From contig JAQUKT010000009.1 of NCBI GenBank assembly GCA_028718945.1, positions 1 through 36,170 of the forward strand: DNA of 36,170 nucleotides, read 5' to 3'. Position numbers and translations under genes: made by a program. The stretch is from Actinomycetota bacterium (GTDB lineage Bacteria > Actinomycetota > Geothermincolia > Fen-727 > JAQUKT01). The notes beneath the pieces were generated by a model. It saw only the letters and a program-made list of their open reading frames with translations. It was not told the DNA's origin and did no database searches. Below, piece after piece: positions 15,573 through 35,771 of the stretch (within the stretch, counting starts at the first letter, position 1; each line of letters begins with the position of its first letter).

Positions 15573-15704
15573 TTGCTTCTTCCCTGGCGCTTGAGAGAAA
15601 AGTTCCAGGAGTATTTTTCTAATAATAATCGAATTCATATTAAAAAGGGGCGTGCTTTCCTGATTCGTTCTCATGATTTTCCTGGGTTCAAGAAGTAAGC
15701 CGCC

Positions 15705-15734: not shown

Positions 15735-15773
15735 TTCAATTGTTTCTTGCTGGAAGTGAGATTTTATTCTGAG

Positions 15774-17090
15774 ATGAAGAGAAGGATAGACGAAAGAAGA
15801 AGCCCACAGCTTTATATCGAGGGGAAAACGCACACCCTTTACAGAAAAAGGAAATTCAGGCTGAAAACCATCCTAAAGATTGGCGCGTTTGTTATTTTAG
15901 CTCTCCTCATTGTGTTACTTCTGTGGGGTTACACCTGGCTCAAGGCTAAAGAGGCAAAGATGCACGTTCGTGGAGTTGACAGTGTGCTTGACAGCACGGC
16001 TTCTGGGCAACCTGTAAACACATTGATTCTTGGAGTGGACAGGGGAAGCGTGAAGGGAGAGGAAAACGTAGCGCGTTCTGACATAATGATGATACTCAGT
16101 GTCAACAAAAAGAGCGGGAAGTCGGCAGTCATCTCTATTCCACGCGATACGAGGGTGAGAATTCCGGGCTATTCCGGGTACGAGAAGATAAATGCCGCGT
16201 ACGCATTTGGGGAAACACCACTTGCGATTGAGACCGTAAAGAATTTGACCGCCCTTTCGATAAATCATTACGTTATTCTCGACTTTGAAGGGTTCAAGAG
16301 CATCGTGAACGCGCTTGGCGGGGTGCCGATGCACATTGATGTCGCGATTCACGACAGGTACGCGGGAGACGTTCCCGCGGGAGATGTTGTGCTAAACGGA
16401 GACCAGGCACTCGCATTCGTGAGGGCAAGGCATGACCCGCGCACTGTTCCCGCGGGCGATCTTGATAGAGTGAAGAACCAGAGAAAGTTCCTGCAGGCAA
16501 TGCTTGGCTCTGCTGCTCACACGAGAAATCCCTTTAAGATTACCAAGCTCGTTGACGCCGTTTCGAGTAATGCGAAAACTGACCTATCGTTTTTCTCAAT
16601 GCTTTCAATTGGAAGGGACCTTCAGTCATCAAACGGAAGTGTCAAGATGACGACCGCTCCGGGTGAACCGAGGGTGTTAGGCGGAGTCTGGTATTACATT
16701 ATTGATGAGGCGGAATTCAAGGATATGCTGAAAACTTTTGCTGAAAGGACCGAGGTCGAGCCGGAGAAATCACAGGTTAGCCAGACGAAGACGCGTTCAC
16801 GGGTAAGGTTGGTTGTGCTCAATGGTGCTGCTGTTACCGGTCTTGCTTCTAAGACGGCGGAACAGCTCAGCCAGCTTGGTTACAAAGACATTCTTACCGG
16901 AAATGCCGTGAACTTGTACTCGAGAACTACTGTATACTATGGCGAGGGAAAAAGTGAATGGGCTGGACTTGTGGCTTCCGACCTTGAGGGGGTTGATGAG
17001 CCGGTTCTCGACGAAAATGCGGAAGTTGCTCTCGGGCACGATGCGGATGTAGTTGTGGTCCTGGGCAAAGATTACAGGTTACACAAATGA
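15774..17090 (+). CDS. LytR-CpsA-Psr (LCP) family cell-wall ligase with LytR C-terminal domain
   Basis: LCP proteins transfer lipid-linked glycopolymers such as teichoic acid, capsule or arabinogalactan onto peptidoglycan outside the membrane. The 438-residue product has a basic N-terminus, one membrane helix (about 32-52) and then the LCP domain. That domain starts at NTLILGVDRG and includes the signature ISIPRDTRVRIPGY and the arginine-rich AFVRARHDP ... DLDRVKNQRKFL. A LytR_C domain (about 345-435, VLNGAAVTGLASKTAEQL) follows. The frame is open from a TTG at 15747; the ATG at 15774 gives the usual basic start but its ribosome site is weak. Hsp20 follows after 27 bases. The presence of an LCP enzyme points to a Gram-positive-type wall. 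Confidence 0.9.
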   Translation: MKRRIDERRSPQLYIEGKTHTLYRKRKFRLKTILKIGAFVILALLIVLLLWGYTWLKAKEAKMHVRGVDSVLDSTASGQPVNTLILGVDRGSVKGEENVARSDIMMILSVNKKSGKSAVISIPRDTRVRIPGYSGYEKINAAYAFGETPLAIETVKNLTALSINHYVILDFEGFKSIVNALGGVPMHIDVAIHDRYAGDVPAGDVVLNGDQALAFVRARHDPRTVPAGDLDRVKNQRKFLQAMLGSAAHTRNPFKITKLVDAVSSNAKTDLSFFSMLSIGRDLQSSNGSVKMTTAPGEPRVLGGVWYYIIDEAEFKDMLKTFAERTEVEPEKSQVSQTKTRSRVRLVVLNGAAVTGLASKTAEQLSQLGYKDILTGNAVNLYSRTTVYYGEGKSEWAGLVASDLEGVDEPVLDENAEVALGHDADVVVVLGKDYRLHK

Positions 17091-17117
17091 GGTTATTGAG
17101 CTGAAAGGCGGCAGGCG

Positions 17118-17570
17118 ATGGAAAAGAATTTGGTTGAAAAGCTGTTAGAGCCGGAGGATGTGCAGAGTCAGGTTGAGAGGTTTTTCATGCATCTCGGGCG
17201 CTGGAAGAGACCTCTTTTCTATTTCGAGAAAGCGTGGAAACCGCGGTGTGATGTAATCGAGACCGAGGATGAGGTTGTAGTTGTTGCTGAACTCGCGGGA
17301 GTTGATGTGAGCAGTCTCGATGTTCGGGTCGAGGGCGACATGCTCTTTCTTGGCGGCATGCGCGCAAGACCGATGAGCGAGGAAAGAATGAACTTTCACA
17401 TTATGGAGATAAACTATGGTCCATTCGAGAGAGAGATTTCTCTTCCATGTGAGGTGGAAGCCGAGAAAGCGAAGGCGAACCTCGAGGATGGTTTTCTCGA
17501 AATAAGGCTTCCTAAGGTGGTTCTCAATGGCAAACAACTGGAGGTTGATGTTGATGTCCCCTTCCAGTGA
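17118..17570 (+). CDS. Hsp20/alpha-crystallin small heat-shock protein
   Basis: These ATP-independent chaperones hold unfolding proteins for later refolding or degradation. The 150-residue protein has an N-terminal arm, then an alpha-crystallin domain (about 45-140) opening with PRCDVIETEDEVVVVAELAGV. The fold closes with ANLEDGFLEIRLPK, which matches the A-x-x-x-n-G-v-L consensus with Phe in place of Val, followed by the usual short tail. Lon starts inside its last codons (17-base overlap with the chosen Lon start), so holding chaperone and protease are made together. That is a logical protein quality-control pair. Confidence 0.9.
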   Translation: MEKNLVEKLLEPEDVQSQVERFFMHLGRWKRPLFYFEKAWKPRCDVIETEDEVVVVAELAGVDVSSLDVRVEGDMLFLGGMRARPMSEERMNFHIMEINYGPFEREISLPCEVEAEKAKANLEDGFLEIRLPKVVLNGKQLEVDVDVPFQ

Positions 17571-20088
17571 TGAGAAAGAGGGAGATTCGAGAAATTCCAG
17601 TTGTGAGGAAACCGAAAAGGGCAAAAGGGAAGAAGGCGTAACTATTATTGCCCCCGAAGGCGAGCCCTCTGTTCGCGCCGATAAGAAAAGCCCCAACAGC
17701 AACTCGGTTGACTCAATTGAAATATCTTCCGAACTCCCGATAATGCCGGTCAAGGATACTGTGGTTTACCCGCACATCGTTGCGCCACTCCTCGTGGAGG
17801 AGGGACACCTCATAAAGCTCATGGACGATGCGCTTGCGGGAGACAGAACTGTTGGGATGGTCGCAGCGCGCGGGAACGAGGAGAATCCTTCCCCGGAGGA
17901 CCTTTATGAAGTTGGCACAGCGGTTGCGGTGGCACGGATGTTCAAACTTCCCGATGGCAAGATGCAACTTTTGGTTCAGGGAGTAGCAAGGATAAGGATA
18001 ACCGAGTATGTCGAGACCCATCCTTACCTCAAGGCAAAGGTTGAAAGACTCAGGGATGTGATGGATGAGAAAGATTCGGTTGAAATCGAGGGGCTTGCGC
18101 GGAACTGCTTGAACCTTTTCAGGAAAATCGTAAGTCTTGCCCCTTATCTGCCTGATGAAATTTTTATCGCCGCAATGAATGTTGGAGAACCAAATGACCT
18201 TGCCGACTTTCTGGCCGCGAACATCAACCTTGATGCGGAGCAGAGGCAGGCCATCTTAGAGGAACTCGACGTGAAGGAGCGCTTGAAAAAACTCACTGTT
18301 CTTCTTAACCGTGAGGTGGAAGTTCTCGAGGTCGGGAGCAGAATACAGAATCAGGTTCAATCGGAGCTCTCAAAGGGACAGCGTGAGTTTTTCTTGAGAG
18401 AGCAGTTGAAGGCGATTCAGAAGGAACTCGGTGAACTGGATGAAAAGTCAATGGAGATAAAGGAGATAAAGGAGGCGATCGAGAAGTCGGGCATGCCTGA
18501 GGAAGCGAGGAAGGAAGCTGAGCGCGAACTCGAAAGGCTTGAGAATATGCCCCAGGCAGCAGCCGAGTACACTGTCGCCAGAACTTATCTCGACTGGATG
18601 GTCAACCTTCCCTGGAAAGAGAGCACCGAGGACAATCTTGATGTGAAGCGCGCGGCGCGAATCCTGGATGAAGACCATTATGACCTCGAAAGGGTAAAGG
18701 AAAGAATTATCGAGTATCTTGCGGTAAGGAATATAAAGAAGGACACCAAAGGCCCGATACTCTGCTTCGTTGGACCGCCGGGTGTAGGCAAGACATCTCT
18801 CGGGCAATCGATTGCCCGCGCGCTTGGTAGAAAGTTCTACCGGATTTCTCTCGGCGGAGTTCGTGATGAAGCGGAAATCAGAGGGCACAGAAGAACCTAT
18901 GTTGGCGCTCTTCCCGGAAGGATAATTCAGGGCTTGAGGAAGGCCGGGACTAACAATCCGGTCTTCATGCTGGATGAGGTTGACAAATTGGGAGCGGACT
19001 TCAGAGGAGACCCTGCTGCGGCGCTTCTTGAGGTCTTGGATCCGGAGCAAAACAACACCTTCTCGGACCATTATCTCGATGTTCAATTCGACCTCTCGAA
19101 GGTGATGTTCATTACGACAGCGAACATACTATTCACGATTCCGCCCGCTCTTCTTGACAGAATGGAAGTTCTCGAACTACCGGGTTACACGGAGCCGGAA
19201 AAGGTAAAGATCGCCCAGCAGTTCCTGGTTCCACGCCAGATAGAGGAGCATGGGTTGAAGAAGTTTCAGGTGGAGATTGACGAGTCCGCGCTCCACGGGA
19301 TTATTAGGAACTATACCAGGGAAGCGGGAGTGAGGAACTTGGAGCGGGAAATTGCTGGTATCTGCCGTAAGATTGCGAGAAAAGTTGCCGAAGGAGGGAA
19401 GGGTCCGTTCAGGATTACTGCTGATGATCTTCACGACATGCTTGGTCCCATCAAATACCGCCTCGAGGTCGTCGAGGAGGACGAGGTTGGGGTTGCCACT
19501 GGTCTTGCATGGACAGAGGCTGGCGGGGACGTTCTGTTCGTTGAGGCTGAATCCTATCCCGGGAAGGGTAATTTGAGTCTTACCGGAAAATTGGGAGAGG
19601 TAATGCAGGAATCGGCAAAAGCAGCCGTGACCTTCGCTCGAGCAAATGCGTCTGTTGTTGGCATTCCCGATAAGTTCTTCGATGAGAATGACATCCACAT
19701 ACATGTTCCCGCAGGGGCAATTCCCAAGGATGGACCATCCGCTGGCATAACAATGGCAGTGGCTCTCATTTCAGCGGCTACCGGAAAGTCCGTGAAAAAG
19801 GATGTCGCGATGACAGGGGAAATCACATTGCGAGGAAAGATTCTTCCAGTGGGTGGGATAAAGGAGAAGGTGCTTGCCGCTCACAGGGCGGGCGTGAAAA
19901 AAGTTATTCTGCCGAAGGAAAACGAAAAAGACCTCGATGAAGTTCCAGATTTCGTGAAGGAGGAACTGAAGTTCGCGTTCGTGGAGAATATCCGCGAGGC
20001 GATCCCACAGGTCATTGATAGCTCGAAACCACAAAAAAGAAATGTCCCATCCGGTGATGGAAAGGAAAGCCATGTTGGAACTGCATAA
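17554..20088 (+). CDS. lon: ATP-dependent protease Lon
   Basis: Lon unfolds and degrades damaged and regulatory proteins in the cytoplasm. From the ATG at 17554 the protein has 844 residues. A charged, low-complexity start of about 50 residues precedes the N-terminal substrate domain (beginning LPIMPVKDTVVYP). An AAA+ module has Walker A GPPGVGKT (407-414) and Walker B VFMLDEVD. The proteolytic domain has Ser729 in PKDGPSAG and Lys772, the 43-residue spacing seen in the E. coli enzyme. The frame is open from 17527, but GGAGG nine bases before 17554 favours this start. The low-complexity N-terminal extension is longer than in E. coli Lon. The next gene overlaps its end by 17 bases, continuing the operon. 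Confidence 0.96.
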   Translation: MSPSSDEKEGDSRNSSCEETEKGKREEGVTIIAPEGEPSVRADKKSPNSNSVDSIEISSELPIMPVKDTVVYPHIVAPLLVEEGHLIKLMDDALAGDRTVGMVAARGNEENPSPEDLYEVGTAVAVARMFKLPDGKMQLLVQGVARIRITEYVETHPYLKAKVERLRDVMDEKDSVEIEGLARNCLNLFRKIVSLAPYLPDEIFIAAMNVGEPNDLADFLAANINLDAEQRQAILEELDVKERLKKLTVLLNREVEVLEVGSRIQNQVQSELSKGQREFFLREQLKAIQKELGELDEKSMEIKEIKEAIEKSGMPEEARKEAERELERLENMPQAAAEYTVARTYLDWMVNLPWKESTEDNLDVKRAARILDEDHYDLERVKERIIEYLAVRNIKKDTKGPILCFVGPPGVGKTSLGQSIARALGRKFYRISLGGVRDEAEIRGHRRTYVGALPGRIIQGLRKAGTNNPVFMLDEVDKLGADFRGDPAAALLEVLDPEQNNTFSDHYLDVQFDLSKVMFITTANILFTIPPALLDRMEVLELPGYTEPEKVKIAQQFLVPRQIEEHGLKKFQVEIDESALHGIIRNYTREAGVRNLEREIAGICRKIARKVAEGGKGPFRITADDLHDMLGPIKYRLEVVEEDEVGVATGLAWTEAGGDVLFVEAESYPGKGNLSLTGKLGEVMQESAKAAVTFARANASVVGIPDKFFDENDIHIHVPAGAIPKDGPSAGITMAVALISAATGKSVKKDVAMTGEITLRGKILPVGGIKEKVLAAHRAGVKKVILPKENEKDLDEVPDFVKEELKFAFVENIREAIPQVIDSSKPQKRNVPSGDGKESHVGTA

Positions 20089-21502
20089 GGTATTCAATCC
20101 ACGCTCCATAGCATTTTTTGGAGCCTCGAACAATCCAACCACGATGGGAACCGGAGAGCTCGCATTCCTGATTATGGCTGGCTTCAAGGGAAAGATTTAC
20201 CCCGTTCATCCATCGGAGAAAAAAGTCCTTGGAATAGATGCTTACAAGAGCGTCAGTGAACTGCCCGAGGTTCCAGACCTTGCAGTGATGGTGCTTCCGA
20301 CCAGTATTGTTCCTCCCATACTTGATGAGTGTGGCAGAGCAGGAATAAGCGCCGCAATAGTCGTATCTGGAGGATTCAAAGAGATAGGAGGAGAGGGGGA
20401 AAAGCTTGAGCGTGAGATTGAAAAGATTGCCAGGAAGCATGGGATAACGCTTATCGGTCCGAACTGCATGGGGGTTGGTCATTTCGAGATAGGATTGAAC
20501 ACAACCTATTCTCCTTATGACCAAAAACCGGGGGGCGTCACCATAATAAGTCAGAGCGGAACTTACGCCAGTCATGTCTTTGGATACACCAAGCAGGCGG
20601 GAATAGGCCTTTCTCACTCGGTGAGCGTTGGGAATTCAGCGGTGGTTGACATCTCCGATTGCCTTGAATATTTCGCCGATGAGCCATCGACGAAGGCTAT
20701 TGCGCTTTATGTTGAAGGAATAAATGATGGCGAAAAATTCATGAGAGCGGCAAAGAAAGCCACCAGCAAAAAAGCGGTGGTAGCCTATTACGTGGGTGGA
20801 AGCAAGGCAGGAGCAAGGGCGGGACTTTCTCACACCGGAGCGTTAGCCGGCGATGACGCGATTTATGATGGAGTTTTCAGGGAAACTGGAATTATTCGTG
20901 CCTACGACATCGAGGAACTCCTCACCTGGTCATGGGCGTTTTCGAATCAACCACTCCCAGCAGGTCCACGCGTGTGTATTCTTTCGCACTCCGGTGGTCC
21001 GGCTGCGAGCATAGCTGACAGGGCCGAAAGAGATGGTCTGGAGGTCCCGATTTTCTCGGCTGAACTTCAGAAGAAGCTTCGCGAGCTTGTTCCCATGACA
21101 GCGGCTGTTTCGAATCCGGTTGATCTCACTTTTTACATGGATGTTGCTTCGGTTTGCGAAGAAATTCCGCGAATTCTCTGTTCGAGTGGGGAGATTGATG
21201 CACTCGTAATCTATCTGATATTCGGCTCGTTCCTTTTGAGTAAAACAAAAAAGGCGCTGGGTAAACGGCTCGATTTCCCGGCCGATAGCGTGATTCCGGA
21301 CATAACAGGTTATCTTTCGAAATTTGTTGAAATCCCCCACGATTTCGGAATACCTGTGATTGCATCATCCTTCTGGAGTAAAGAAGATGAGGGCATCGAG
21401 CTTCTTTGCGAAAATGGAATCCCTGTCTTTAATGCTCCCGAAAGAGCGGTCGACGCGGTTTCCGCAATGTGGAGGGTTAGCGCGGCCGCGAAAGAGGGTT
21501 GA
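20072..21502 (+). CDS. ADP-forming acyl-CoA synthetase, alpha-subunit-like CoA-binding protein
   Basis: NDP-forming acyl-CoA synthetases interconvert acyl-CoA, ADP and phosphate with free acid, CoA and ATP, passing phosphate through a histidine. The 476-residue protein has the CoA-binding Rossmann domain (FNPRSIAFFGASNNPTTMG, 1-130), a ligase domain with IGPNCMG and SQSGTYA, and the phospho-His candidate His254 in GLSHTGALAGDD. A third domain follows and the protein then stops. The ATP-grasp beta domain of the full enzyme is missing here, and no beta-subunit gene lies next to it. It must pair with a subunit encoded elsewhere or belong to the acyl-CoA/protein acylation regulators that use single domains. 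The chosen ATG (20072) has an AGGAAAG site; the frame is open from 20015. Confidence 0.82.
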   Translation: MLELHKVFNPRSIAFFGASNNPTTMGTGELAFLIMAGFKGKIYPVHPSEKKVLGIDAYKSVSELPEVPDLAVMVLPTSIVPPILDECGRAGISAAIVVSGGFKEIGGEGEKLEREIEKIARKHGITLIGPNCMGVGHFEIGLNTTYSPYDQKPGGVTIISQSGTYASHVFGYTKQAGIGLSHSVSVGNSAVVDISDCLEYFADEPSTKAIALYVEGINDGEKFMRAAKKATSKKAVVAYYVGGSKAGARAGLSHTGALAGDDAIYDGVFRETGIIRAYDIEELLTWSWAFSNQPLPAGPRVCILSHSGGPAASIADRAERDGLEVPIFSAELQKKLRELVPMTAAVSNPVDLTFYMDVASVCEEIPRILCSSGEIDALVIYLIFGSFLLSKTKKALGKRLDFPADSVIPDITGYLSKFVEIPHDFGIPVIASSFWSKEDEGIELLCENGIPVFNAPERAVDAVSAMWRVSAAAKEG

Positions 21503-21607
21503 TCCTTCCGGTAAAACGAACCGAAAATCCCGAAATTGTCACAGGAATGCTGTAATCTATTCTCAAAGAGAGTGTTTCGACTTTTCTCACGAAAGGAGGT
21601 GGGGGAG

Positions 21608-22804
21608 ATGCCCGTTTATTCCCGGAGTCGAATAGATACATTCCTGAGTTGCCCCCTGAAATACAGATTCAAATACATTGACGGCATCCGCAAAGAGGAG
21701 GAAAACGTCGAGCCTTGGCTCGGTAACGTTGTCCACAAAACTTTGCATGAACTTCTAAGGCTGAAGAAAGATTTCAGGAGAGAGCCAAAGCTCGAGGCTG
21801 CAATCGAAATTTTCGAAAAAATGTGGAGCGATAGCGTTCATGAAAAAATCACAATTCACGACGAGTTCGCTAATCTCGATGACTACAGGCGAAGGGGTCT
21901 TATGTTCATCGAGAATTTCTTTGAGGCGGAGAAAGGGCGCGATTATGGAGAAATTGTCTCTCTCGAGGGGCAGGTTAATTTCAAGATTGATGGGTATTCC
22001 TTCACAGGATACATAGACAGATTGCAAAAGGATGGAAGCACATACCACATCGTTGACTACAAAACTTCTAAATCCCCCTTGAGCCAGGAGGCTGCCGATC
22101 GAGATGAGCAGCTTGCGCTCTATGAGATAGGGGTGCGCCAGAATTTCCCGCAGGTAGAAAAAGTCGTTCTTCACTGGCACATGCTCAGTGACGGAACGGT
22201 TGTGGATTCATCAAGAAGTCCCGAGCAACTTGAAAGCTTGATGCAAAAGGTTCCAATTCTTGTGAATGAAATTGAAGCAGAGAAAGATTTTCTACCACTC
22301 GAGAGTGGTCTGTGCAACTGGTGCGAGTATAAAGAGGAATGCCAGAGCGAAAGGGAAAAGAGAACCATTGCGCATGAGGAGATGGATTTTGCTTCTATGG
22401 TGGAGGAATATGAAACGCTCTACGAGGAAAAATCGGAACTCGATTCCAGTTTGAAGAAAATAGAAAAGGCCATGGAGAAACTTGCTGCCCCAATCGTAGA
22501 TGAATGCTTGAGGAGGGATTGCTGGTCGGTTGAGGGAAAAGAGCATATTCTCAATTTGGAAAGGTCTGAAAAGATTTCGATTCCGGGAAAGGGTGGAAAA
22601 GCGCGGGACGAACTTGAAAGAATCCTTCGTGAAGCAAGAAGGTTTGATTCGCTTTTCTCGATTGAGAGAAACGCTTTTCTAAAGGCGCTTGGCGAGGGGA
22701 TGCTTGGCGAGCTTACGGAAACCGTGAAGGGAATGCTCGAAGAAAGAGAAGAGATAAAAATAAAAGTTCTGAGGAGGAAAACCAGGCCTGAAAGCGGTTC
22801 TTGA
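21608..22804 (+). CDS. PD-(D/E)XK nuclease family protein, RecB/AddB/Cas4-like, with Fe-S cysteines
   Basis: The 398-residue protein has the RecB-type nuclease core: His43 in GNVVHKTLHELL, Asp137 in GYIDRLQ, Asp150-x-Lys152 in IVDYKTSK and the QxxxY helix (Gln168, Tyr172). Cys15 (LSCPLKYRF) and Cys236, Cys239, Cys245 (CNWCEYKEEC) match the split four-cysteine 4Fe-4S site of AddB, Dna2 and Cas4. A long helical tail (about 250-398) with coiled-coil character follows. The ATG at 21608 has a near-perfect AAAGGAGGTG ribosome site, which fixes the start against the open frame upstream. No helicase gene or CRISPR array is adjacent. Expected activity is single-strand DNA end processing; it may work with a separately encoded helicase. 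Confidence 0.88.
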   Translation: MPVYSRSRIDTFLSCPLKYRFKYIDGIRKEEENVEPWLGNVVHKTLHELLRLKKDFRREPKLEAAIEIFEKMWSDSVHEKITIHDEFANLDDYRRRGLMFIENFFEAEKGRDYGEIVSLEGQVNFKIDGYSFTGYIDRLQKDGSTYHIVDYKTSKSPLSQEAADRDEQLALYEIGVRQNFPQVEKVVLHWHMLSDGTVVDSSRSPEQLESLMQKVPILVNEIEAEKDFLPLESGLCNWCEYKEECQSEREKRTIAHEEMDFASMVEEYETLYEEKSELDSSLKKIEKAMEKLAAPIVDECLRRDCWSVEGKEHILNLERSEKISIPGKGGKARDELERILREARRFDSLFSIERNAFLKALGEGMLGELTETVKGMLEEREEIKIKVLRRKTRPESGS

Positions 22805-27120: not shown

Positions 27121-27403
27121 AGCACAAGCACAGGACCAAAAAGAAGCTCTGATAAATTGAACACGGTCTAATATGCGGTGGGCTGAATAGGAGTTAGTTA
27201 TCCTTTACGGCAGAGTTCTTGCGGATATTTCGCGAGGGGACTTAACTCAAGACTCCCACAAGAAGGAAGCTTCCTCTTTCCTACCAGATAATCTGCCTCA
27301 GTGGAAAAGATGTGTCGTATATGTGGCGCGTTGAAATTCCAGCCTTGAAAATTTAATTTGCCTGATATGCTCAAGCCCGTATGGCTGCTGTACTTGTGGC
27401 AAA
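27121..27403. other. Intergenic stretch between the acetate operon and the island edge
   Basis: Together with 27448-27615 this is the longest stretch without a confident gene. It holds a short palindrome AGGAAGCTTCCT near 27264 and no coding frame I can support. The last 47 bases (27357-27403) resemble, in their first 18 positions, the bases at the same distance from the other tRNA copy (32594-32640), with 15 of 18 matching by eye. Confidence 0.4.
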
Positions 27404-27447
27404 AGCCCCCGGCGGGACTCGAACCCGCGACCTACGGATTAGGAATC
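27404..27447 (-). repeat. Attachment site duplicate: 3' half of tRNA-Arg(CCU)
   Basis: These 44 bases are identical to 32641-32684, the region from the anticodon loop to the 3' end of the tRNA gene. The match breaks sharply inside the 5' side of the anticodon stem, so no complete tRNA can form here. It marks the end of the island far from the intact tRNA gene. Confidence 0.9.
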
Positions 27448-27573
27448 TGAATTGATACGTTTGTGCAGTTTTAAGTAGTTTATTCCAATTGCGTATAAAT
27501 GCAGTCATGATGCGGGTCAACGAGTATTTCTCTTAAATCTTGTTTCTCCTAATTTCATGTAGTTTCGGCTAAA

Positions 27574-27595
27574 ATAGGTGAAATATAGGTGAAAT
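27574..27595 (+). repeat. Tandem 11-bp repeat, left arm-site candidate
   Basis: ATAGGTGAAAT occurs twice without a gap (27574-27584, 27585-27595). The right end of the island has the same arrangement with G in place of one A. Integrases of the tyrosine family bind short direct repeats of this size in attachment-site arms. Confidence 0.6.
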
Positions 27596-27615
27596 GGGAA
27601 TAGAGGGGAGAAAGC

Positions 27616-27786
27616 GTGGAAATCAAGGAAAGACGAAAAGAAGGTGTCATCTGGAAAACAAAAGATTCTGAAGAAAGAAACTGTTACATGAGTTCTGGTT
27701 ACTTCAAGGGCATCCCGGTTGAACCTGCGGGATTATGGAGATTTCATTCTCTTGCTGAAGCGAGAGAGCAATTGAAAAAGGTATAG
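27616..27786 (+). CDS. Small hypothetical protein of the island (56 residues)
   Basis: The frame starts with GTG behind GGGGAG and reads VEIKERRKEGVIWKTKDSEE, a mid-section with CYMSSGYFKGIPVEP, and ends in SLAEAREQLKKV. It is charged, soluble and without transmembrane or signal features. The same GAGAAAGCGTGG string surrounds its start and the start of the repeat protein at 28003, so the two may share expression signals. I do not recognise the family. It is the first reading frame inside the left arm of the island. Confidence 0.5.
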   Translation: MEIKERRKEGVIWKTKDSEERNCYMSSGYFKGIPVEPAGLWRFHSLAEAREQLKKV

Positions 27787-27850
27787 AAGTAAGTTATAAA
27801 TAGAGCTATGCTTTGCTTGGTTCTATCGCGTCAGAAAGGAGATGAATGCC

Positions 27851-27970
27851 ATGCAAGAGTATCAGCAAACTGCTCCGTTGACAAAGATTGGTAATCTGCC
27901 TATGACATTATTCCTTGCTAGTGAATCCCACAGACGAATAGAGTATTCAACCAGCAAGTCTTATAATTAG
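27851..27970 (+). pseudogene. Truncated copy of the TM2-protein gene, N-terminal end only
   Basis: The first six codons (MQEYQQ) and the ribosome-site region GAAAGGnG match the intact TM2 gene at 31126. After that the frame diverges (TAPLTKIGNLP ...) and stops at 39 codons, without the membrane part. It looks like a 5' fragment left by recombination between TM2 copies. Confidence 0.6.
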
Positions 27971-28002
27971 GCAAGGAACCGCCAATTGATGAGAGAGAAA
28001 GC

Positions 28003-30009
28003 GTGGTAATGAAAAAATATCCGAGATTGCCAAGCAATAAGGGATTGTTTTTCAATAGGCAAGTGGCGGCTTTTTTGGAAGTATTAGCCATATTAGTACT
28101 TATGATGATGAGCCCTTTTGTTACTTCATATGCATTTGAGCAAGGCTTGTTAGCTACAAGTAATACATTTGGCGATGGAAATTCGAGCACTTGGTATCTG
28201 GCTGAAGGCTCTACGGCATGGGGTTTCGATACCGTTATATCGATTGAGAATCCAAATCTTACTGGTGTCACCTGTTCGATAACTTTCATGACAACTACTG
28301 GGCCATTACAGTATCGCGATATTGGTTTGCCATCACAAAGCCAAACAACGCTTAATCCTCGTGATTTTCTTGGAGAGCGTGATTTCTCCACAAAAATCCA
28401 GTGCAAAGAAGGGAAACCAATTGCAGTGGATAGGAGCATGTATTGGAGCTGTCCTGGTACCACTCAAACGGAGGGTCACGGTTCTTTGGGTGTAACATCT
28501 CCATGCAAATGCTGGTATCTTGCAGAAGGCTCTTCAAATTGGGGATTCGAGTGCTGGCTCTTAATTCAAAACCCGAATTCTTCACCAGCCAACTGCGCAA
28601 TAACTTACATGATTCAGGGAGAAGGGCCTCGGACTTTTAACAAAGTTGTTAGTGCAAACTCCCGGGCAACCTTCAATATGGCGAATGACATTGGAGCTAA
28701 GGATGCAAGCATAAAAGTGGAATCGGACAAGGCGATTATCGCAGAACGTGCAATGTATCGGAACAGTAGGCGATGCGGACACGATTCGATTGGCACAACA
28801 TCACCATCAACCACGTACTTCCTATCTGAAGGAACAACGGCCTGGGGATTTTCGGAATTCATACTTGTTCAAAACCCAAACAGTTATCAAGTGGCTGTGT
28901 ACATAACCTATATGCAGAGCGACTTTTCAGAACCAGTGCAGAAGCCTCCATTCACAATGCCTGCGAACTCGCGGCAAACAATCAAAGTAAATGACGACTT
29001 GCCTGATAGAGACCTCTCAGCAAAGGTACAAGCATCAGGTCCAATAATCGCTGAGAGAGCAATGTATTGGAATAACGGCACAGGAGAAGCTGGACACGCA
29101 TCCATAGGGCAACCTTCTCCAAATATGATTTACTACTTGCCTGATGGGCAGTCTTCTCAGGGTTTTGAAACATGGACACTTGTCCAGAACCCTAATAACG
29201 AGATGGTTGGGATAAAGGTCTCATACCTTACTCCCTCGGGTAAGGCCAATGTTTATTTCACCGACTATATTCCTGCACAATCCAGGGCAACTTACAATAT
29301 GGCATCGAATCTTCCAGACTCCCGAGCGTCAAGCAAGGTCGAGTCACTCGATGTCGGAATGCCGATTATGTGCGAACGCGCAATGTATTTTGGGAATCGC
29401 TCAGGAGGGCATAATACAATCGGCTATTCTCCGAAACAGGGTAATGTGTTGATAGCCGAAGAAAGACCAATTAAAGACGAAACTTCACTTTGGATTCACG
29501 GCGTAGTCGAGAACCAAACTCTCCAGTCCGTTATGTGCGTCCATATAGCTGCAACTTTCTATGATGCTTCTGAGCGTGTCATCGGAAGCAAATCAGGTTA
29601 TACAAACCTTTCAGTCATGGACCCCGAGGACTACTCTCCATTTAGAGTATTGTTCTATGATGTTCCGGCGAGTTACCATCATTACTCCTTAGCAATCGAA
29701 TATCAAATTAGCGAAACTCAGAGGAACAAGGATGTTGTGGTCATTTCTCATCAGCACTACACTGACACGTATGGATACTATCATGTCACTGGTACCATCA
29801 AGAATAATGGAAAAAGAACTCATGATTATTCTGAGGTTTGCATAGTATACAGGGACTCCTCTGGGAACCTCCTTTCTACATATTCAACCTTTGGAGAACT
29901 GGACTCGCTTGCGCCAGGTCAGAGCACTTCTTTTGATGCTTCAATTCCGCCATCTTGGGGGGCAGATAAAGTATCAAGCTATACAATCCTTATTTCCTGC
30001 GAATCATAG
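28003..30009 (+). CDS. Secreted protein with four WYLAEGSTAWGF-type repeats and two FxLYD-like domains
   Basis: The 668-residue protein has an N-terminal hydrophobic segment (about 22-44) ending SYA, a signal peptide. Four repeats of about 100 residues begin at 64, 171, 272 and 377. Each opens with (W/Y)YLAEGSTAWGF or a variant, passes through an (I/V)QNPN motif and an (S)R.T.N turn, and closes with AERAMYW and GH.S.G. They resemble DUF5719-type beta domains. Two further beta domains (about 495-570 and 575-668; WIHGVVENQT and YHVTGTIKNNGKR) look like FxLYD domains. No cell-wall anchor is seen. It starts at GTG 28003 or ATG 28009. It lies within the tRNA island, while the subtilase beside the island carries the same repeats. 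A surface or matrix role is inference. Confidence 0.82.
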   Translation: MVMKKYPRLPSNKGLFFNRQVAAFLEVLAILVLMMMSPFVTSYAFEQGLLATSNTFGDGNSSTWYLAEGSTAWGFDTVISIENPNLTGVTCSITFMTTTGPLQYRDIGLPSQSQTTLNPRDFLGERDFSTKIQCKEGKPIAVDRSMYWSCPGTTQTEGHGSLGVTSPCKCWYLAEGSSNWGFECWLLIQNPNSSPANCAITYMIQGEGPRTFNKVVSANSRATFNMANDIGAKDASIKVESDKAIIAERAMYRNSRRCGHDSIGTTSPSTTYFLSEGTTAWGFSEFILVQNPNSYQVAVYITYMQSDFSEPVQKPPFTMPANSRQTIKVNDDLPDRDLSAKVQASGPIIAERAMYWNNGTGEAGHASIGQPSPNMIYYLPDGQSSQGFETWTLVQNPNNEMVGIKVSYLTPSGKANVYFTDYIPAQSRATYNMASNLPDSRASSKVESLDVGMPIMCERAMYFGNRSGGHNTIGYSPKQGNVLIAEERPIKDETSLWIHGVVENQTLQSVMCVHIAATFYDASERVIGSKSGYTNLSVMDPEDYSPFRVLFYDVPASYHHYSLAIEYQISETQRNKDVVVISHQHYTDTYGYYHVTGTIKNNGKRTHDYSEVCIVYRDSSGNLLSTYSTFGELDSLAPGQSTSFDASIPPSWGADKVSSYTILISCES

Positions 30010-30116
30010 CAAATATATCTATTGCGTCTGCTTTTTTTGACTGGAAGTTGAAGCCTAATGATGAATAGTCGAAAGTTTTGATAGTATATGAATAAATAAA
30101 AAAGAACTTACTATAC

Positions 30117-30317
30117 ATGCTTCGCTTTTCATTACTTCGCACCTCAAGAATTGGTATGGGAATCCTCAGGGATTTTGGGCCGCATAGGTATTACCTTGGT
30201 GACATAACTATGGGCGTTATTTATACATTCACAGGGGGTTTGTTTCTTATAGGCTGGCTCATTGACGCAACCAGAATCAACAGAAGAGTCGATATCATAA
30301 ACGCAAGAGGGTATTAA
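30117..30317 (+). pseudogene. Truncated copy of the TM2-protein gene, C-terminal part
   Basis: Bases 30183-30316 match 31231-31364 with constant offset 1048 and only a few differences, covering HRYYLGDITMGVIYTF to the stop (INARGY). The first part (MLRFSLLRTSRIGMGI ...) is unrelated to the intact copy, and no ribosome site precedes it. The first membrane helix is incomplete. The rest of 30010-30469 shows no other gene. Confidence 0.7.
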
Positions 30318-30469
30318 ACAAGGTTTTCTGAGAAGATTGACATGAGGCACTCACTTGATGACAATAAGTATTGTGTGATAACCGAAAGCTTTGAGAAGCA
30401 AAGTTTTATATTTTGTTAGGTAATATCGGTTTCTACCAAGCTCAAGGAAAAGATAGAAAGGGGATAACC

Positions 30470-31078
30470 ATGAGTCCCGAAGGAAGTCCTACTTCATACG
30501 GAACACAGGCCCCCCAATTCACAGTTAACCCTCCCCCAACACCACCTGGGCACAAAATGCCCTCTCAGAATAAAGGAAACAAGTTGAAGTGGGTTCTCAT
30601 TATCGTTGGAGTGATAATCGTCCTGGGTATTGTCGGTGCCATTGCAAGCATAGGCGAGAAAGAGGAATCCACTAAGCCTGAGGTCTCTAAGACATCGACC
30701 GAGGAAGAAACTACGCCTGAAGTAACTTCACCGAAGGCTCAAGCACCAGATATATCGGAGTTTGAGCCAGTTGGATTCTTTGATAATCGCCCTGCAATGT
30801 ACGGTATCAGCTATTATGTCACCAGTCCGACCAAGGCAGACATCAAGGCTTTATGTGACGAGATGAAGGTGAGATATATCGACACAGGACTCACCACGAA
30901 CCTTCAAGTAGATTTTTTTGATAACCTGGAAAACACACCGGACTTCAAGACATACCACGAGGATTACGGATATTACTATTTCCCCGACTCCTGTGAGCCT
31001 TATCATGTTGCTAATTACTACTACAATGCAAATAACAATGCCACTAGGCTTCTGTTTCTCAAAGATATTCCAGATTGA
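30470..31078 (+). CDS. Single-pass membrane protein with external beta-rich domain, unknown
   Basis: From the ATG at 30470, preceded by AAAGGGGAT, the protein has 202 residues. A Pro/Gly/Ser-rich cytoplasmic start of about 40 residues leads to one hydrophobic helix (WVLIIVGVIIVLGIVGAIA). An acidic Thr/Glu-rich linker follows, and then a folded domain with many Tyr residues (about 100-202; HEDYGYYYFPDS). The proline-rich start followed by one helix resembles proteins that often sit beside TM2 proteins, and the intact TM2 gene follows 47 bases later, so the two are probably co-expressed. I do not recognise the outer domain. The frame is open from 30413 but the added part lacks a ribosome site. 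Confidence 0.7.
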   Translation: MSPEGSPTSYGTQAPQFTVNPPPTPPGHKMPSQNKGNKLKWVLIIVGVIIVLGIVGAIASIGEKEESTKPEVSKTSTEEETTPEVTSPKAQAPDISEFEPVGFFDNRPAMYGISYYVTSPTKADIKALCDEMKVRYIDTGLTTNLQVDFFDNLENTPDFKTYHEDYGYYYFPDSCEPYHVANYYYNANNNATRLLFLKDIPD

Positions 31079-31125
31079 GTATAATAACCAGTCGAGGGTG
31101 TTTGTTATGAAAGGGGGTAATTGTC

Positions 31126-31365
31126 ATGCAAGAGTATCAGCAACTTGTTCAGCCTGTTCAAAAGCCTATAAAACAAAAGAAGAAATGGGTAGCATGGGTT
31201 CTTTGGGCTACTCTTGGGCTTTTTGGGGCTCATAGGTATTACCTTGGTGACATAACTATGGGCGTTATTTATACATTCACAGTGGGTTTGGGTTCTATAG
31301 GCTGGCTCATTGACGCAACCAGAATCAACAGAAGAGTCGATATCATAAACGCAAGAGGGTATTAG
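31126..31365 (+). CDS. TM2-domain membrane protein (intact copy)
   Basis: TM2 proteins have two membrane helices joined by a short turn, with the conserved pattern of aromatic and glycine residues around LFGAHRYYLGD. The 79-residue protein has a short polar start, helix 1 (WVAWVLWATLGLFGA), the HRYYLG turn, helix 2 (GVIYTFTVGLGSIGWLIDA) and a charged tail. AAAGGGGG precedes the ATG. Partial copies of the same gene lie at 27851 (5' end) and 30117 (3' end), so this locus has undergone repeated local duplication. The molecular role of bacterial TM2 proteins is not established. Confidence 0.83.
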   Translation: MQEYQQLVQPVQKPIKQKKKWVAWVLWATLGLFGAHRYYLGDITMGVIYTFTVGLGSIGWLIDATRINRRVDIINARGY

Positions 31366-31387
31366 TCGGTTTGTATCTCCTCTTACA

Positions 31388-31410
31388 CTTCCACCACAAG
31401 GAAGCGTTTT
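31388..31410 (+). terminator. Weak terminator candidate after the TM2 gene
   Basis: CTTCC, a seven-base loop and GGAAG form a five-pair stem followed by CGTTTT. It lies 23 bases after the TM2 stop. The stem is short, so it is offered with low confidence. Confidence 0.3.
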
Positions 31411-31485
31411 GTGTTTCCATATACCTGACTGATACCTCGCTTTAGAAACGAAATCATGAAGCCTCAGGGCACAATTTCGACGCCC

Positions 31486-31929
31486 TCATTGTCCTTGTCT
31501 GCTGGATTTGACTATCTTTGTTAACTCCTCGATTTCTTTTTCTATGTCCACGTTCTCGATACGTCCTGAGTGCTCTACTGCGCGCTTATCTTTCCATCTT
31601 TCCGGGGCACGGTTCTGAAGGAAAAATATGATTGCGGTGATGCTTCCTTCCTCTGCGCACTTCTTTAGTTGACGCTCGTAATATGCAATCGCTTTTTCCT
31701 CTGCTTTTTTTATTGCTTCAAAAAATTCAATATATCCCTCCCTCCCTTCCCGTCCCCAATTTGTCCAATTACAAAGCGTCTGTGGTGTTATTCCCACTTT
31801 TGCGCAAGCACTTTCCTTTGTGCAACCATTCTCTATCGCCTTGCATATTTTCTCCTGAACCTCCGAAGTTAATTTTGTTCTTCTTCCCCTCATTGTTGTC
31901 TCCCTGAATTCTTCTGTATTTTTCGCCAT
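31486..31929 (-). CDS. Phage terminase small-subunit-like helix-turn-helix protein
   Basis: The 147-residue protein starts with a basic patch (RGRRTKL), followed by a helix-turn-helix (about 20-60: IENGCTKESACAKVGITPQTLCNWTNWG). Next come a helical segment with AIKKAEEKAIAYYERQLKKCAEEG and the FFLQNRAPERWKDKR stretch typical of small terminase subunits of tailed phages. A coiled end (about 120-147) follows. GGAGGT precedes the ATG. In phages this protein recognises packaging sites; here no large terminase, portal or capsid genes accompany it. It may mark viral DNA for packaging by a helper, or be a regulator that keeps the same fold. Upstream lies an array of repeated operator-like sequences. 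Confidence 0.75.
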   Translation of the reverse strand: MAKNTEEFRETTMRGRRTKLTSEVQEKICKAIENGCTKESACAKVGITPQTLCNWTNWGREGREGYIEFFEAIKKAEEKAIAYYERQLKKCAEEGSITAIIFFLQNRAPERWKDKRAVEHSGRIENVDIEKEIEELTKIVKSSRQGQ

Positions 31930-31973
31930 CTTACTACCTCCAATATTTTTTTGCGCTTGCTCTGCTTATGTCT

Positions 31974-32080
31974 GATTTTTGTGCGTGCTCAAAAAGTCCA
32001 ATTTTTCCTTTCGTGGAGCGAAAAACTCGATTTTTGCATTTTTGTGCGTACCCCCATATTTTCGCGCACGCACAAAAATC
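31974..32080. repeat. Operator-like inverted and direct repeats upstream of the terminase-like gene
   Basis: GATTTTTGTGCGTGC at 31974-31988 has a perfect 15-bp inverted partner at 32066-32080 (GCACGCACAAAAATC). A third, direct, 13-bp partial copy (ATTTTTGTGCGTA) lies at 32038-32050. All three lie between the winged-helix gene and the start of the terminase-like gene; the last arm runs into the stop codon of the former. They are natural candidates for binding sites of either DNA-binding protein. Confidence 0.7.
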
Positions 32081-32426
32081 AAAATTCCTTCTCTGTATCC
32101 TCTTTCAACGAATACATTTTCACCGGTCGCCCCTTCCCCTCAGTCTTATCCTCAACGAAATTAACCCTGTTATCTTCCACCATTCCCTTAAGATATCTGG
32201 ATGCCCGCGAACTGCTAATACCTAATGCTTCGGCAATATTTTTTACGGATGCTGTTCCTTCCTGCTCCAGATAATCAATTATCTCCCCTTCCCGCTCCTT
32301 TGATTCGTAATCACTGGCCTTCCCCTCATACATCCAGGTTAGATTGCCCGTGTCAAGTTTGATGACATCTGTTGAATTCTCTGCATAACGAGAGGTAATA
32401 CTTAGATTTGCAATCTCGGCAACCAT
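32079..32426 (-). CDS. Winged-helix DNA-binding protein of the island
   Basis: The 115-residue protein has an N-terminal part of about 40 residues of unclear fold and then a winged helix-turn-helix (about 45-100). That domain contains EGEIIDYLEQEGTASVKNIAEALGISSSRASRYLKGMVED and a wing with KTEGKGRPVKMYSL. The helix pattern (LGISSSRASRYL) resembles MarR/ArsR-type or replication-linked winged helices. No strong ribosome site precedes the ATG. It is the gene nearest the intact tRNA and could regulate the island; the repeats just downstream, in the promoter of the next gene, are likely targets. No ligand-binding or metal motif is visible. Confidence 0.7.
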   Translation of the reverse strand: MVAEIANLSITSRYAENSTDVIKLDTGNLTWMYEGKASDYESKEREGEIIDYLEQEGTASVKNIAEALGISSSRASRYLKGMVEDNRVNFVEDKTEGKGRPVKMYSLKEDTEKEF

Positions 32427-32543
32427 GACCTTAAATGTTTATTCTCACCTTATACCGGAGGATATGGACAGTGCGGTTATGAGGGCTTCGGCAGGTTTCC
32501 AAAGGGACAAGAAAGTTATCAGTTTTCGCCATCCAGGGAAAAA

Positions 32544-32565
32544 ATAGGTGGAATATAGGTGGAAC
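32544..32565 (+). repeat. Tandem 11-bp repeat, right arm-site candidate
   Basis: ATAGGTGGAAT (32544-32554) and ATAGGTGGAAC (32555-32565) lie back to back, matching the left pair at 27574-27595 with one systematic A-to-G change. The site ends 75 bp before the tRNA 3' end. Confidence 0.6.
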
Positions 32566-32640
32566 GGATTCTTGAATCACTTTGGTATCCCTATTTGGTT
32601 GATATGCTTAAATACGATGGTTATGCGGGTTCACGATAAG

Positions 32641-32684
32641 AGCCCCCGGCGGGACTCGAACCCGCGACCTACGGATTAGGAATC
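32641..32684 (-). repeat. Attachment site within the intact tRNA-Arg gene
   Basis: This is the 44-bp copy of the direct repeat that remains part of the functional tRNA gene, covering the anticodon loop to the discriminator base. The matching copy is at 27404-27447. Confidence 0.88.
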
Positions 32685-32714
32685 CGTTGCTCCTTCCGCC
32701 TGAGCTACGGGGGC
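32641..32714 (-). tRNA. tRNA-Arg (anticodon CCU)
   Basis: The 74-base gene folds as acceptor GCCCCCG/CGGGGGC, D stem GCTC/GAGC, anticodon stem ACGGA/TCCGT and T stem GCGGG/CCCGC with loop TTCGAGT. The anticodon loop TTCCTAA gives CCT, reading AGG codons as arginine. CCA is not encoded. It is the integration site of the adjoining island, and its sequence has been kept whole by the duplicated 3' half. Confidence 0.95.
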
Positions 32715-32882: not shown

Positions 32883-35771
32883 TTGAGCAAAGAGATTAAA
32901 TATTATCTTTTGGTGATTGCTATTATCGCGAATCTTTTGTGCCCCTTGGGTTGTTTTCTTTGCGAGCCCGGATTGTGCAGTGAGCATAATTCGCAGAGTC
33001 TCGGCCCTTTGAAATCGAGCCCGGAACTTCCAACCTTCTCTTTGCCGGGCAACCTTGATAATCTCAAGTGCGTTCCCGGTGAGATACTTGTGAGGTTCAA
33101 AGAGAATGCCGGAGCGGGAAAAATATCCGAGACAATGAGACTAATAGGTGCTTCATCCTTGGAAAAGAATCCATACGCGAATTTCGATTTGATAAGGCTT
33201 CGCGATGATTCGAAAGACGCGCTAAAAGACGCGCTCGAGGCGCTCCGTCACTTTAGCTTCGTTGCTTATGCCGAGCCAAACTACATTCGAAGCGCCGCTT
33301 CCACAGCACTTTTCCCGCCTCCTCCGAATGACCCCGATTTTAACAAGCAGTGGAACTTTGACGATCCGTCGGGGGATGCGGATATAAATGTTATCGAAGC
33401 CTGGAGTGATTTTTCCCCGCAGGGAGGGAGTAGCCAGACAATAATAGCGGTGCTCGATACGGGAATCGCGTATGAGAACTACGGTTCATACTCACTTGCT
33501 CCAGACCTTTCGAACACGGAATTTTCTCCAGGATACGACTTTATCAACAAGGACTCGCACCCGAACGACGACAACGGGCATGGGACCCATGTCGCTGGCA
33601 CCATAGCGCAGAGCACCAACAATTCGATTGGCGTTGCAGGGGTTGCTTTCAATTGCAAGTTGATGCCGGTGAAGGTTCTTGACAAGAAGGGGGATGGTGC
33701 GGATTCTGCTATAGCGAGCGGCATAAGGTATTCGGTTGATAATGGTGCCGATATTCTGAACATGAGCCTTTGCGGTGAGGCTCAAAGCGAAGTTTTAGAG
33801 GAGGCAATAGATTATGCCTATCAGAAAGGGGCTGTAGTTTGCGCCGCTTCGGGAAACAATGGAACAAGCTCCGTCAGCTATCCTGCTGCATACCCTGCAT
33901 GCATTGCTGTCGGGGCTACCAATCGAGATGGAACTTTAACCAAATACTCGAACTACGGTTATGCGATTGATGTCGTTGCCCCGGGAGGGGAAGGAAACGA
34001 AGGGATTCTTCAGCAGACATTCAAAGTTTCCGAAAGACCCTCGAGCGGTTTTGCTTTCAAGGAAATGATAGGAACTTCTATGGCATGCCCCCATGTTGCA
34101 GGAGTTTCAGGGCTTGTCAAATCCATTCACCCATCCTGGAGCCAGAAGCAAATAAAGGCGGCGATTCTTGCGACCGCGAAGGACACCGGGGAAGATGGAT
34201 GGGACGCGAAATACGGCTTCGGGCTTTTGGATGCCGGGAAAGCGTGCGCCTGGACAGGTAATGACGTGCCGTCTCCTTCGATGAGTTCGATTTCACCGAA
34301 TCACGGAACAAGCGGCGAGAATGTTTCTGTTTCGATCAAGGGAAAGGGCTTTTCCTCTCCGATGAAGATATGTCTTGCGAGAGAAGGAGAGGGCACGGTT
34401 GCCGCGAAGGAGGTTTCACTTTCGGGGAGTACGGGAATTTCATGCAGGTTCGAACTTTCCGGCGCGCAACCGGGCCTCTTTAGTTTGGTGGTTGAAAACG
34501 CGGAATTAGAAGGAGCGATTCTCACCGGCTCCTTTCAGGTTGACTCTTCGGACTTGAAAACGTGGTATCTTGCGGAGGGCTCTACTGCATGGGGATACGA
34601 GGAGTTCATTCTCGTCGAAAACCCTCGGGAACAAAACGCAAACGTGGAAATTACCTTTATGACTCCTGAAGGACCTTCAGGTCCTGTTCCTCTCGTTGTT
34701 CCACCGCGCAGCAGGAGTACCCTGAATTGCAACAATGTGATTCCCGGTAAAGACATCTCCGCAAGGGTTACGGCGAACTGCGACATCATAGTTGAGCGGG
34801 CAATGTACTGGTCGGGAAGGCTCGAAGGGACGGATTGCATCGGTGTCCAGGCTCCATCATATACCTGGTATCTTGCGGAAGGGTCAACTGCTCATGGTTT
34901 TTCAACGTATCTTTTAGTTCAGAATCCAAACTCTCAAGAAGCGACCGTCTGGATTACATATATGACGCCGGATGGACCGGTTGGGGAAGTGCCATTCAAG
35001 ATTGCCGCAAATTCCCGCCGCACCGTCAATGTCAATGAAAGACTCCGGGAAAAGGACTGTTCATTCAGGGTTTCATCAGACATGAGGGTGATTGCGGAAC
35101 GCTCGATGTACTGGGATGGGAATAGAGGCGGGCATGTTTCGACCGGAACAACTCAGCCTTCTCAGTCATGGTATCTTGCTGAGGGTGCGACGTCATCTGG
35201 CTTTGACGAGTGGGTTCTTCTGCAAAACCCGTGCGACTCCGATGCGCAGATAGAGCTTTCTTGTATGACACCGGAGGGGACTGCTTTTGAAGGCTCTTTC
35301 ACCCTGAGTTCGGGGTCCCGGTATTCGGTCCATGTGAACGAGGTTGTCCCCGGTCGGGATGTCTCCGTTAGAGTGTCTTCGAGCGTGGGTGTGATTGTCG
35401 AGCGGGCGATGTACTGGAATAACGGCACAGGCAAGGCGGGTCACGCATGCTGCGGCATTTCTCAGCCGCGAGAAACGTGCTTTCTTGCGGAAGGGTCAAC
35501 CGCATGGGGATTTGAGGAATGGGTGCTCGTCATGAATCCGAATGATGAGCAGGCGATGGTAACAATTGAGTATCACACATCAAATGGTCCCGTTCCAAGG
35601 GAATCGATCTTGCTTGCTCCATTCAGCAGGACAACAATCTTTGTCAACAAGGATGTTCCAATGGTGGATGTTTCAACAGAGGTGATTGCTGATATACCCA
35701 TTATTGCTGAGCGGGCGATGTACTGGAATTCTCGTGGTGGAGGGCACGCGTCAACTGGATTGATGCGTTGA
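32883..35771 (+). CDS. Secreted subtilisin-family (S8) protease with TIG/IPT domain and four WYLAEGSTAWGF repeats
   Basis: The 962-residue protein has a signal segment (about 5-28) and a fervidolysin-like prodomain (65-135). The S8 catalytic domain (about 150-455) has Asp192 (AVLDTG), His233 (NGHGTHVAG), oxyanion Asn325 and Ser399 (GTSMACPHVAG). An IPT/TIG beta domain (465-553) and four repeats starting at 561, 662, 763 and 867 complete it. These are the same family as in the island protein at 28003. The start is TTG at 32883, backed by GGAGGG six bases upstream. No sortase motif or C-terminal helix is present, so the repeats may hold the enzyme on the surface or matrix. All catalytic residues are present, so it is expected to be active. 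Confidence 0.93.
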   Translation: MSKEIKYYLLVIAIIANLLCPLGCFLCEPGLCSEHNSQSLGPLKSSPELPTFSLPGNLDNLKCVPGEILVRFKENAGAGKISETMRLIGASSLEKNPYANFDLIRLRDDSKDALKDALEALRHFSFVAYAEPNYIRSAASTALFPPPPNDPDFNKQWNFDDPSGDADINVIEAWSDFSPQGGSSQTIIAVLDTGIAYENYGSYSLAPDLSNTEFSPGYDFINKDSHPNDDNGHGTHVAGTIAQSTNNSIGVAGVAFNCKLMPVKVLDKKGDGADSAIASGIRYSVDNGADILNMSLCGEAQSEVLEEAIDYAYQKGAVVCAASGNNGTSSVSYPAAYPACIAVGATNRDGTLTKYSNYGYAIDVVAPGGEGNEGILQQTFKVSERPSSGFAFKEMIGTSMACPHVAGVSGLVKSIHPSWSQKQIKAAILATAKDTGEDGWDAKYGFGLLDAGKACAWTGNDVPSPSMSSISPNHGTSGENVSVSIKGKGFSSPMKICLAREGEGTVAAKEVSLSGSTGISCRFELSGAQPGLFSLVVENAELEGAILTGSFQVDSSDLKTWYLAEGSTAWGYEEFILVENPREQNANVEITFMTPEGPSGPVPLVVPPRSRSTLNCNNVIPGKDISARVTANCDIIVERAMYWSGRLEGTDCIGVQAPSYTWYLAEGSTAHGFSTYLLVQNPNSQEATVWITYMTPDGPVGEVPFKIAANSRRTVNVNERLREKDCSFRVSSDMRVIAERSMYWDGNRGGHVSTGTTQPSQSWYLAEGATSSGFDEWVLLQNPCDSDAQIELSCMTPEGTAFEGSFTLSSGSRYSVHVNEVVPGRDVSVRVSSSVGVIVERAMYWNNGTGKAGHACCGISQPRETCFLAEGSTAWGFEEWVLVMNPNDEQAMVTIEYHTSNGPVPRESILLAPFSRTTIFVNKDVPMVDVSTEVIADIPIIAERAMYWNSRGGGHASTGLMR

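Follow-up and report, generated by a model that had tools for sequence, protein, structure and literature searches.

The tRNA-Arg(CCU) gene in a 36,170-nucleotide stretch of an Actinomycetota genome (contig JAQUKT010000009.1; the window) is the border of a compact island that carries a terminase gene, and the question arises whether this island is a helper-dependent phage satellite or the remnant of something larger. The preliminary description had left both readings standing. For the present state of the island, remnants of an integrase and a replication gene favor the second, and a satellite is its likely ancestry. The source genome is a draft assembly of 121 contigs and 1.8 Mb, with a completeness of 94%.

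Attachment and arm-type sites

The intact integration target, tRNA-Arg(CCU) at 32640-32714 on the minus strand, was called by ARAGORN with the anticodon CCT and scored 66.8 bits against Rfam RF00005. Its 3′ half contains the right copy of the attachment core (32641-32684), and the left copy, a displaced tRNA 3′ half, lies at 27404-27447. The two copies are identical over 44 bp and 98% identical over 47 bp. The 5.2-kb island bounded by this perfect repeat was correctly delimited in the preliminary description, and the integrated element corresponds to 27448-32684. The GC content of the island is 42.8% versus about 49.5-50% in the flanks. Except for weak matches to other tRNA genes, no further copies of the tRNA-Arg half were found in the 1.8-Mb genome.

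Inside each end of the island lies a 24-bp tandem of two 11-bp units, both tandems being in one orientation. The left arm-type site, AAAATAGGTGAAATATAGGTGAAA at 27571-27594 (+), and the right one, AAAATAGGTGGAATATAGGTGGAA at 32541-32564 (+), agree at 22 of 24 positions; when 300-bp stretches of the window were paired at random, the best agreement was 20 of 24. With up to 3 mismatches allowed, the 1.8-Mb genome contains no sites other than these two, one per island end, and no second copy of the island ends was found elsewhere in it. The same paired arrangement exists in three other genomes (G006, G007, and G063). A search of 84,980 species genomes yielded 54 occurrences of the two-unit pattern, 7 of which lay within 150 bp of a tRNA gene compared with 0.55 expected. 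Several adjoined a tyrosine integrase; the near and far sets of ORFs were otherwise alike, and chance would account for most of the other matches. An obligatory association of the motif with an integrase was rejected, as it held for only part of the 54 matches. In G063, a member of the Verrucomicrobiales, the pattern recurs in direct orientation within either end of a tRNA-Leu element that carries an integrase. In G065 it is present in direct orientation at positions 67 kb apart, with an integrase beside one end and tRNA-Leu at the other. Because the same layout flanks integrase-bearing tRNA elements in these two genomes, the comparison supports the prediction that the pair in the window represents integrase arm sites. 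Elements of this kind may be sought by looking immediately within a tRNA-half repeat for the 11-bp GGTRRA arm motif in paired form.

The verrucomicrobial element (L172, G063:C90, about 12682-22348) spans ∼9.7 kb between 59-bp att repeats and has paired arm motifs. It encodes a helicase/primase-like gene, and no structural gene was recognized in it.

Integrase and helicase remnants

Compared with a tRNA-integrated element of the tyrosine recombinase type, the island has the tRNA-half repeat and the arm-type sites and lacks an intact integrase gene. The preliminary statement that no recombinase is present holds for intact genes, but the 3′ end of one remains. In a six-frame comparison of the island with integrases, 32416-32526 (+) matched the C terminus of an integrase located at tRNA-Lys on another contig of the same genome (G000:C34) with 43% identity over 37 amino acids and an E value of 1.5e-7. 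The match scored 84, whereas the maximum obtained with shuffled stumps was 39; the C34 integrase was the only one matched strongly. The remnant (SATMTLNVYSHLIPEDMDSAVMRASAGFQRDKKVISFRHPGKK followed by the stop, 32416-32547, plus strand) comprises about 43 codons (32416-32544), includes the catalytic-tyrosine region NVYSHL, and reads toward the tRNA gene. The right arm site contains its stop codon (32545-32547), and the reading frame of the G007 integrase likewise terminates within an arm repeat. Once the integrase tail had turned up, the notion that the island is integrase-less by design was rejected.

The 115-aa protein encoded at 32079-32426 (−), previously annotated as a winged-helix regulator, proved to be the C-terminal tail of an AAA_25 RepA/DnaB-like helicase. 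In a 342-aa AAA_25 protein from G018, residues 222-324 align with it (35% identity, E = 2e-14), and so does the corresponding part of two larger proteins, a 465-aa AAA_25/DnaB-N protein from G007 and a 718-aa Prim-Pol/AAA_25 protein from a plasmid. All three alignments start after the AAA_25 domain. No relatives of the protein were found in the viral contig collection. A winged-helix regulator annotated beside an att site may thus be a helicase stump.

Homology of the helicase tail starts at its residue 6 (32411), and homology of the integrase tail starts at 32416, so that the two tracts are 4 bp apart. Because rep homology ends and int homology starts at this point, the two divergent genes would each have lost their 5′ part at one junction (32411-32416), and a single internal deletion is inferred as the simplest cause of both losses. 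Alternatively, the junction may stem from an assembly chimera in the draft genome. An apparently integrase-free island can arise by a small deletion with a readable scar, in which the integrase tail touches the rep tail. No excision factor (xis) was recognized among the island ORFs in family searches.

Between the rep tail and the terminase gene, the 14-mer ATTTTTGTGCGTRC occurs in three exact copies (31975+, 32038+, and 32066-32079−). They lie within 105 bp (31975-32079), and no other exact copies are present in the 1.8-Mb genome. Because the origin of phage-inducible chromosomal islands (PICI) comes after rep (PMC6092414), the cluster is a candidate origin; an operator or a pac/packaging site would be alternatives. 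Compared with a PICI-type replication module, in which rep/pri is followed by ori, the island lacks an intact rep and has its C-terminal tail followed by the 14-mer cluster.

A second trace of integration lies just outside the island. At 27263-27390 (+), a relic of the integrase-proximal end of another element is 77% identical over 130 bp (E = 1.6e-21) to the stretch that separates the C34 integrase from tRNA-Lys. Since this relic abuts the left repeat, tRNA-Arg was probably entered at least twice in a tandem insertion, with the island being the later arrival. The C34 integrase itself (L015, G000:C34 5736-6816) is broken, being interrupted by a transposase-like ORF, and its locus represents a second decayed insertion in the same genome. 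With respect to a helper integrase fitting the arm repeats, which the preliminary description had suggested looking for, a related enzyme is thus present in the form of C34, but an intact arm-binding integrase fitting the island was not found in the 94%-complete assembly. Two further candidates were rejected. The integrase at tRNA-Glu on contig C32 has no Pfam arm-binding domain match. In the case of a XerC-like gene on C31, the first 1.2 kb of the contig look foreign and the resemblance to tRNA-Ala is weak. This AT-rich gene (L010, G000:C31 1-1240) lies at the contig end by tRNA-Ala in a region whose composition is unlike the rest, and could be either another element end or contamination.

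The tRNA-Arg(CCU) gene lies near an S8 subtilisin-like protease with DUF5719 repeats (32883-35771), and this adjacency is kept in three genomes of the same bacterial order (G006, G007, and G011). In all three, the 44-bp duplication is absent. The preliminary description had named the same gene order without this duplication as grounds for refuting its reading; however, the other flank differs, so the comparison is not one with a strict empty site.

The terminase small subunit and the cargo

The terminase small subunit (TerS) is encoded at 31486-31929 (−). As the preliminary description had proposed from the sequence, the protein is TerS-like, with matches to PHROG 309 (E = 6e-24) and PHROG 4102 (E = 3e-23); the match to Pfam Sf6_terminase (2e-5) is just under the cut-off. 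Its predicted structure is of low confidence, and Sf6 TerS was among the top PDB matches, none of which was significant. To the TerS of a G006 element, the protein is 34-36% identical. No TerS relatives were found in the genome contig collection. A viral relative is encoded in contig L023 beside a large terminase subunit (TerL), and a TerL scan of viral contigs returned one partial contig. Family searches of the island ORFs gave no capsid, portal, tail, or TerL match, consistent with the earlier account of an island without capsid or large terminase. When the TerL, portal-like, and capsid-like proteins of L023 were compared with the island by tblastn, the best result was a 29-residue match with E = 0.02. 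In the source genome, a search with one PHROG model (PHROG 2) found no large terminase.

The remainder of the island is occupied by cargo, all of it on the plus strand. The largest gene (28003-30009) encodes a 668-aa secreted DUF5719-repeat/FxLYD protein of host type, which matches NCBIfam FxLYD with 1e-16 and Pfam DUF5719 with 1.9e-5, the latter just under the cut-off. Because it is 39% identical to the repeats of the S8 protease beside the tRNA gene, the protein is probably host-derived. A TM2-domain membrane protein is encoded at 31126-31365 (Pfam TM2, 1.8e-17). In addition to this intact copy (31109-31365), two fragments of TM2 genes lie on either side of the secreted DUF5719 gene: a 5′ fragment at 27834-27875, 81% identical to 31109-31150, and the 3′ part of a second gene at 30173-30316, 95% identical to 31221-31364. 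The arrangement suggests that the secreted DUF5719 gene arrived by disrupting a TM2 copy. A 221-aa protein with one predicted membrane segment (30413-31078) has weak family matches around this segment only, and a 56-aa ORF beside the left arm site (27616-27786) had no match in family searches. The ORFs for TerS and the cargo are open, and they do not alone show decay of the whole island.

The FxLYD, DUF5719, and TM2 matches agree with the secreted and membrane cargo given in the preliminary description. The argument built on it, that such cargo makes the island unlike known satellites, is weak, considering that the secreted protein is of host type and TM2 proteins occur in phages. Of the parts named there, the island, the repeat, the TerS-like protein, and the cargo are retained; the winged-helix regulator and the recombinase-free reading are not.

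Related elements and origin of the island

The closest counterparts in layout were found in G006, a genome of the same order and a different family, in which one contig (C57) carries two intact elements. One occupies tRNA-Pro (L197, 92264-100695, 8.4 kb, 43-bp tRNA-Pro repeat) and the other tRNA-Cys (L198, 111885-121069, 9.1 kb, 45-bp tRNA-Cys repeat). Both have the order TerS, coiled-coil ORF, TerL, and AAA_25 rep on the minus strand, followed by an ORF and the integrase on the plus strand and the tRNA gene on the minus strand. Paired GGTAGA arm sites are located within either end, and among the larger ORFs of the two elements no capsid, portal, or tail family could be recognized. An initial assignment of the TerS/TerL region of G006 to a prophage was replaced by the two compact elements once the att repeats had been found. 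In G007 the corresponding order is AAA_25 (−), ORF (+), integrase (+), and tRNA-Thr (−).

The G006 TerL (L074, 14572-16101) is 45% identical to the TerL of the Methanothermobacter phages psiM2 and psiM100, an unexpected link between bacteria and archaea. The coiled-coil ORF was searched for in 397 genomes of the phylum and turned up in G006 only, apart from one marginal match in G170; no relatives of it were found in the viral contig collection.

The island shares with both G006 elements the polarity, TerS, rep tail, integrase tail, arm sites, and an adjoining tRNA gene, and it lacks their TerL and coiled-coil ORF. Because of this absence and the presence of cargo, it is regarded as a reduced relative of these elements rather than as a proven member, and it may come from a neighboring lineage or have undergone further losses. 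The relationship is distant, with 28-36% identity between the TerS proteins and 28-35% between the rep tail and its homologues. We consider it likely that the island is a disabled relative of a small satellite that encodes terminase, loaded with cargo and reduced by internal deletion. The observations that carry this reading are the att repeats, the arm sites, the integrase and rep tails, and the intact sister elements in the same bacterial order. Entry into tRNA-Arg(CCU) would have occurred by tyrosine-integrase recombination between tRNA 3′ halves, and the prediction that the enzyme was self-encoded is well supported. The ancestor would have carried a rightward integrase gene ending at the tRNA and, divergent from it, the AAA_25 helicase, a possible origin, terS, and cargo. 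Judging from gene families and the G006 cousins, the helicase would have served replication and TerS would once have directed packaging by a helper phage. The single deletion at 32411-32416 would then have cost int and rep their 5′ parts along with everything that separated them, whereas the two att cores, the two arm-site pairs, terS, and the cargo would have stayed in place. As it stands, the island should be unable to excise alone. With its cores and arms preserved, it might conceivably be excised and so rescued in trans by a related integrase.

An ordinary prophage remnant, in which a temperate phage at tRNA-Arg lost its integrase, helicase, TerL, and structural genes and left terS and cargo behind, accounts for the evident decay of int and rep and for a TerS that belongs to a true phage family with its viral relative beside TerL in a phage contig (L023). 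However, the two G006 elements that share this layout, each inserted at its own tRNA gene and with intact att sites, measure only 8.4-9.1 kb and have no recognizable capsid, portal, or tail gene; the lack of a PHROG 2 match in the source genome and of structural-gene matches among the island ORFs also argues against it, and we consider this origin unlikely. It is improbable that the island derives from an integrative plasmid-like or mobilizable element with an AAA_25 rep and an integrase, in which terS is a stray gene and which was never a phage satellite. AAA_25 helicases of this type are also found on plasmids (C. bescii pATHE01), and the stretches examined in G007 and G018 have rep and its neighbors without a terminase. 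Against this, TerS follows directly behind rep in the island, TerS and TerL are on the rep strand in both G006 elements, and no relaxase or conjugation gene was recognized.

The island could also be a functional element that does without an integrase, cis-mobilizable and MITE-like, being mobilized in trans through its att and arm sites and packaged by a helper through its own TerS. The cores, both arm pairs, terS, and the unique 14-mer cluster are intact, the genome has a related integrase at tRNA-Lys with a relic of that att type abutting the island, and integrase-lacking satellites have been reported from virions (PMC10690885). We nevertheless regard this as quite improbable, because what remains of int and rep indicates loss rather than design, the related C34 integrase is itself interrupted, and neither an intact fitting arm-binding integrase nor a second copy of the ends was found in the genome. 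A chance repeat or chromosomal rearrangement at the tRNA gene without any mobile element, although the cargo is partly host-like, is refuted by the 44-bp exact repeat together with the paired arm sites, the integrase tail, and TerS.

Returning to the reduced satellite relative, its two intact cousins suggest a type of satellite that encodes TerS as well as TerL itself and has no capsid genes. No described satellites were found in the literature for the bacterial order of the window. It is quite possible, though we propose it only tentatively, that these elements belong to an undescribed family of this clade, consisting of tRNA-integrated satellites with TerS, TerL, AAA_25 helicase, and integrase and without capsid, and that the island is a cargo-carrying relative one deletion away whose att, arm, and terS parts are still mobilizable. 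If so, G006-type satellites would fill the empty heads of a helper with their own packaging motor. The intact, terminase-complete, capsid-less pair in G006 is the most valuable lead from this analysis.

In the comparison with known systems, the G006 elements are the nearest. Like the island, they are bounded by direct repeats of a tRNA half and have paired 11-bp arm sites within each end. In both cases the integrase is directed toward the tRNA gene, the AAA_25 rep diverges from it, and TerS, of the same PHROG, is encoded on the strand of rep, distal to the tRNA gene. Unlike the island, the G006 elements have kept int and rep; they also encode TerL and a coiled-coil ORF and are free of the DUF5719/TM2 cargo. 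Cis-mobilizable elements (CIME) have att sites but no recombinase. The island resembles them in having kept its att sites and lost the recombinase; it differs in that no conjugative relative is present at the window site and its relatives carry terminase genes.

Similarity to PICI and SaPI lies in the order of integrase/regulators, rep, origin, terS, and cargo, in the small size, in the site-specific att, and in a TerS without structural genes; the island also fits the PICI criterion, in which terS is optional. In contrast to these, the island is without int, xis, rep, and regulators, and its G006 cousins carry TerL, which is absent from the PICI gene description in the excerpted text of PMC6092414. 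The minimalist PICMI satellites of Vibrionaceae (PMC10803314) are likewise very small, with an integrase and a replication gene and no capsid gene. However, their core consists of int, alpA, and primase at fis, in another bacterial group and at another target, and the word “terminase” is absent from that paper (PMC10803314). The cf-PICI also encode both terminase subunits; they differ in the capsid, portal, and connector genes described for them in PMC10690885, none of which was recognized here. Finally, the integrase-lacking VEIMEs and MiniFlayer-type satellites (PMC10690885) share with the island the absence of an integrase. Those elements have been reported from particles or as a helper-associated phage (PMC10690885), whereas the island is chromosomal and has att sites, arm sites, and an integrase remnant.
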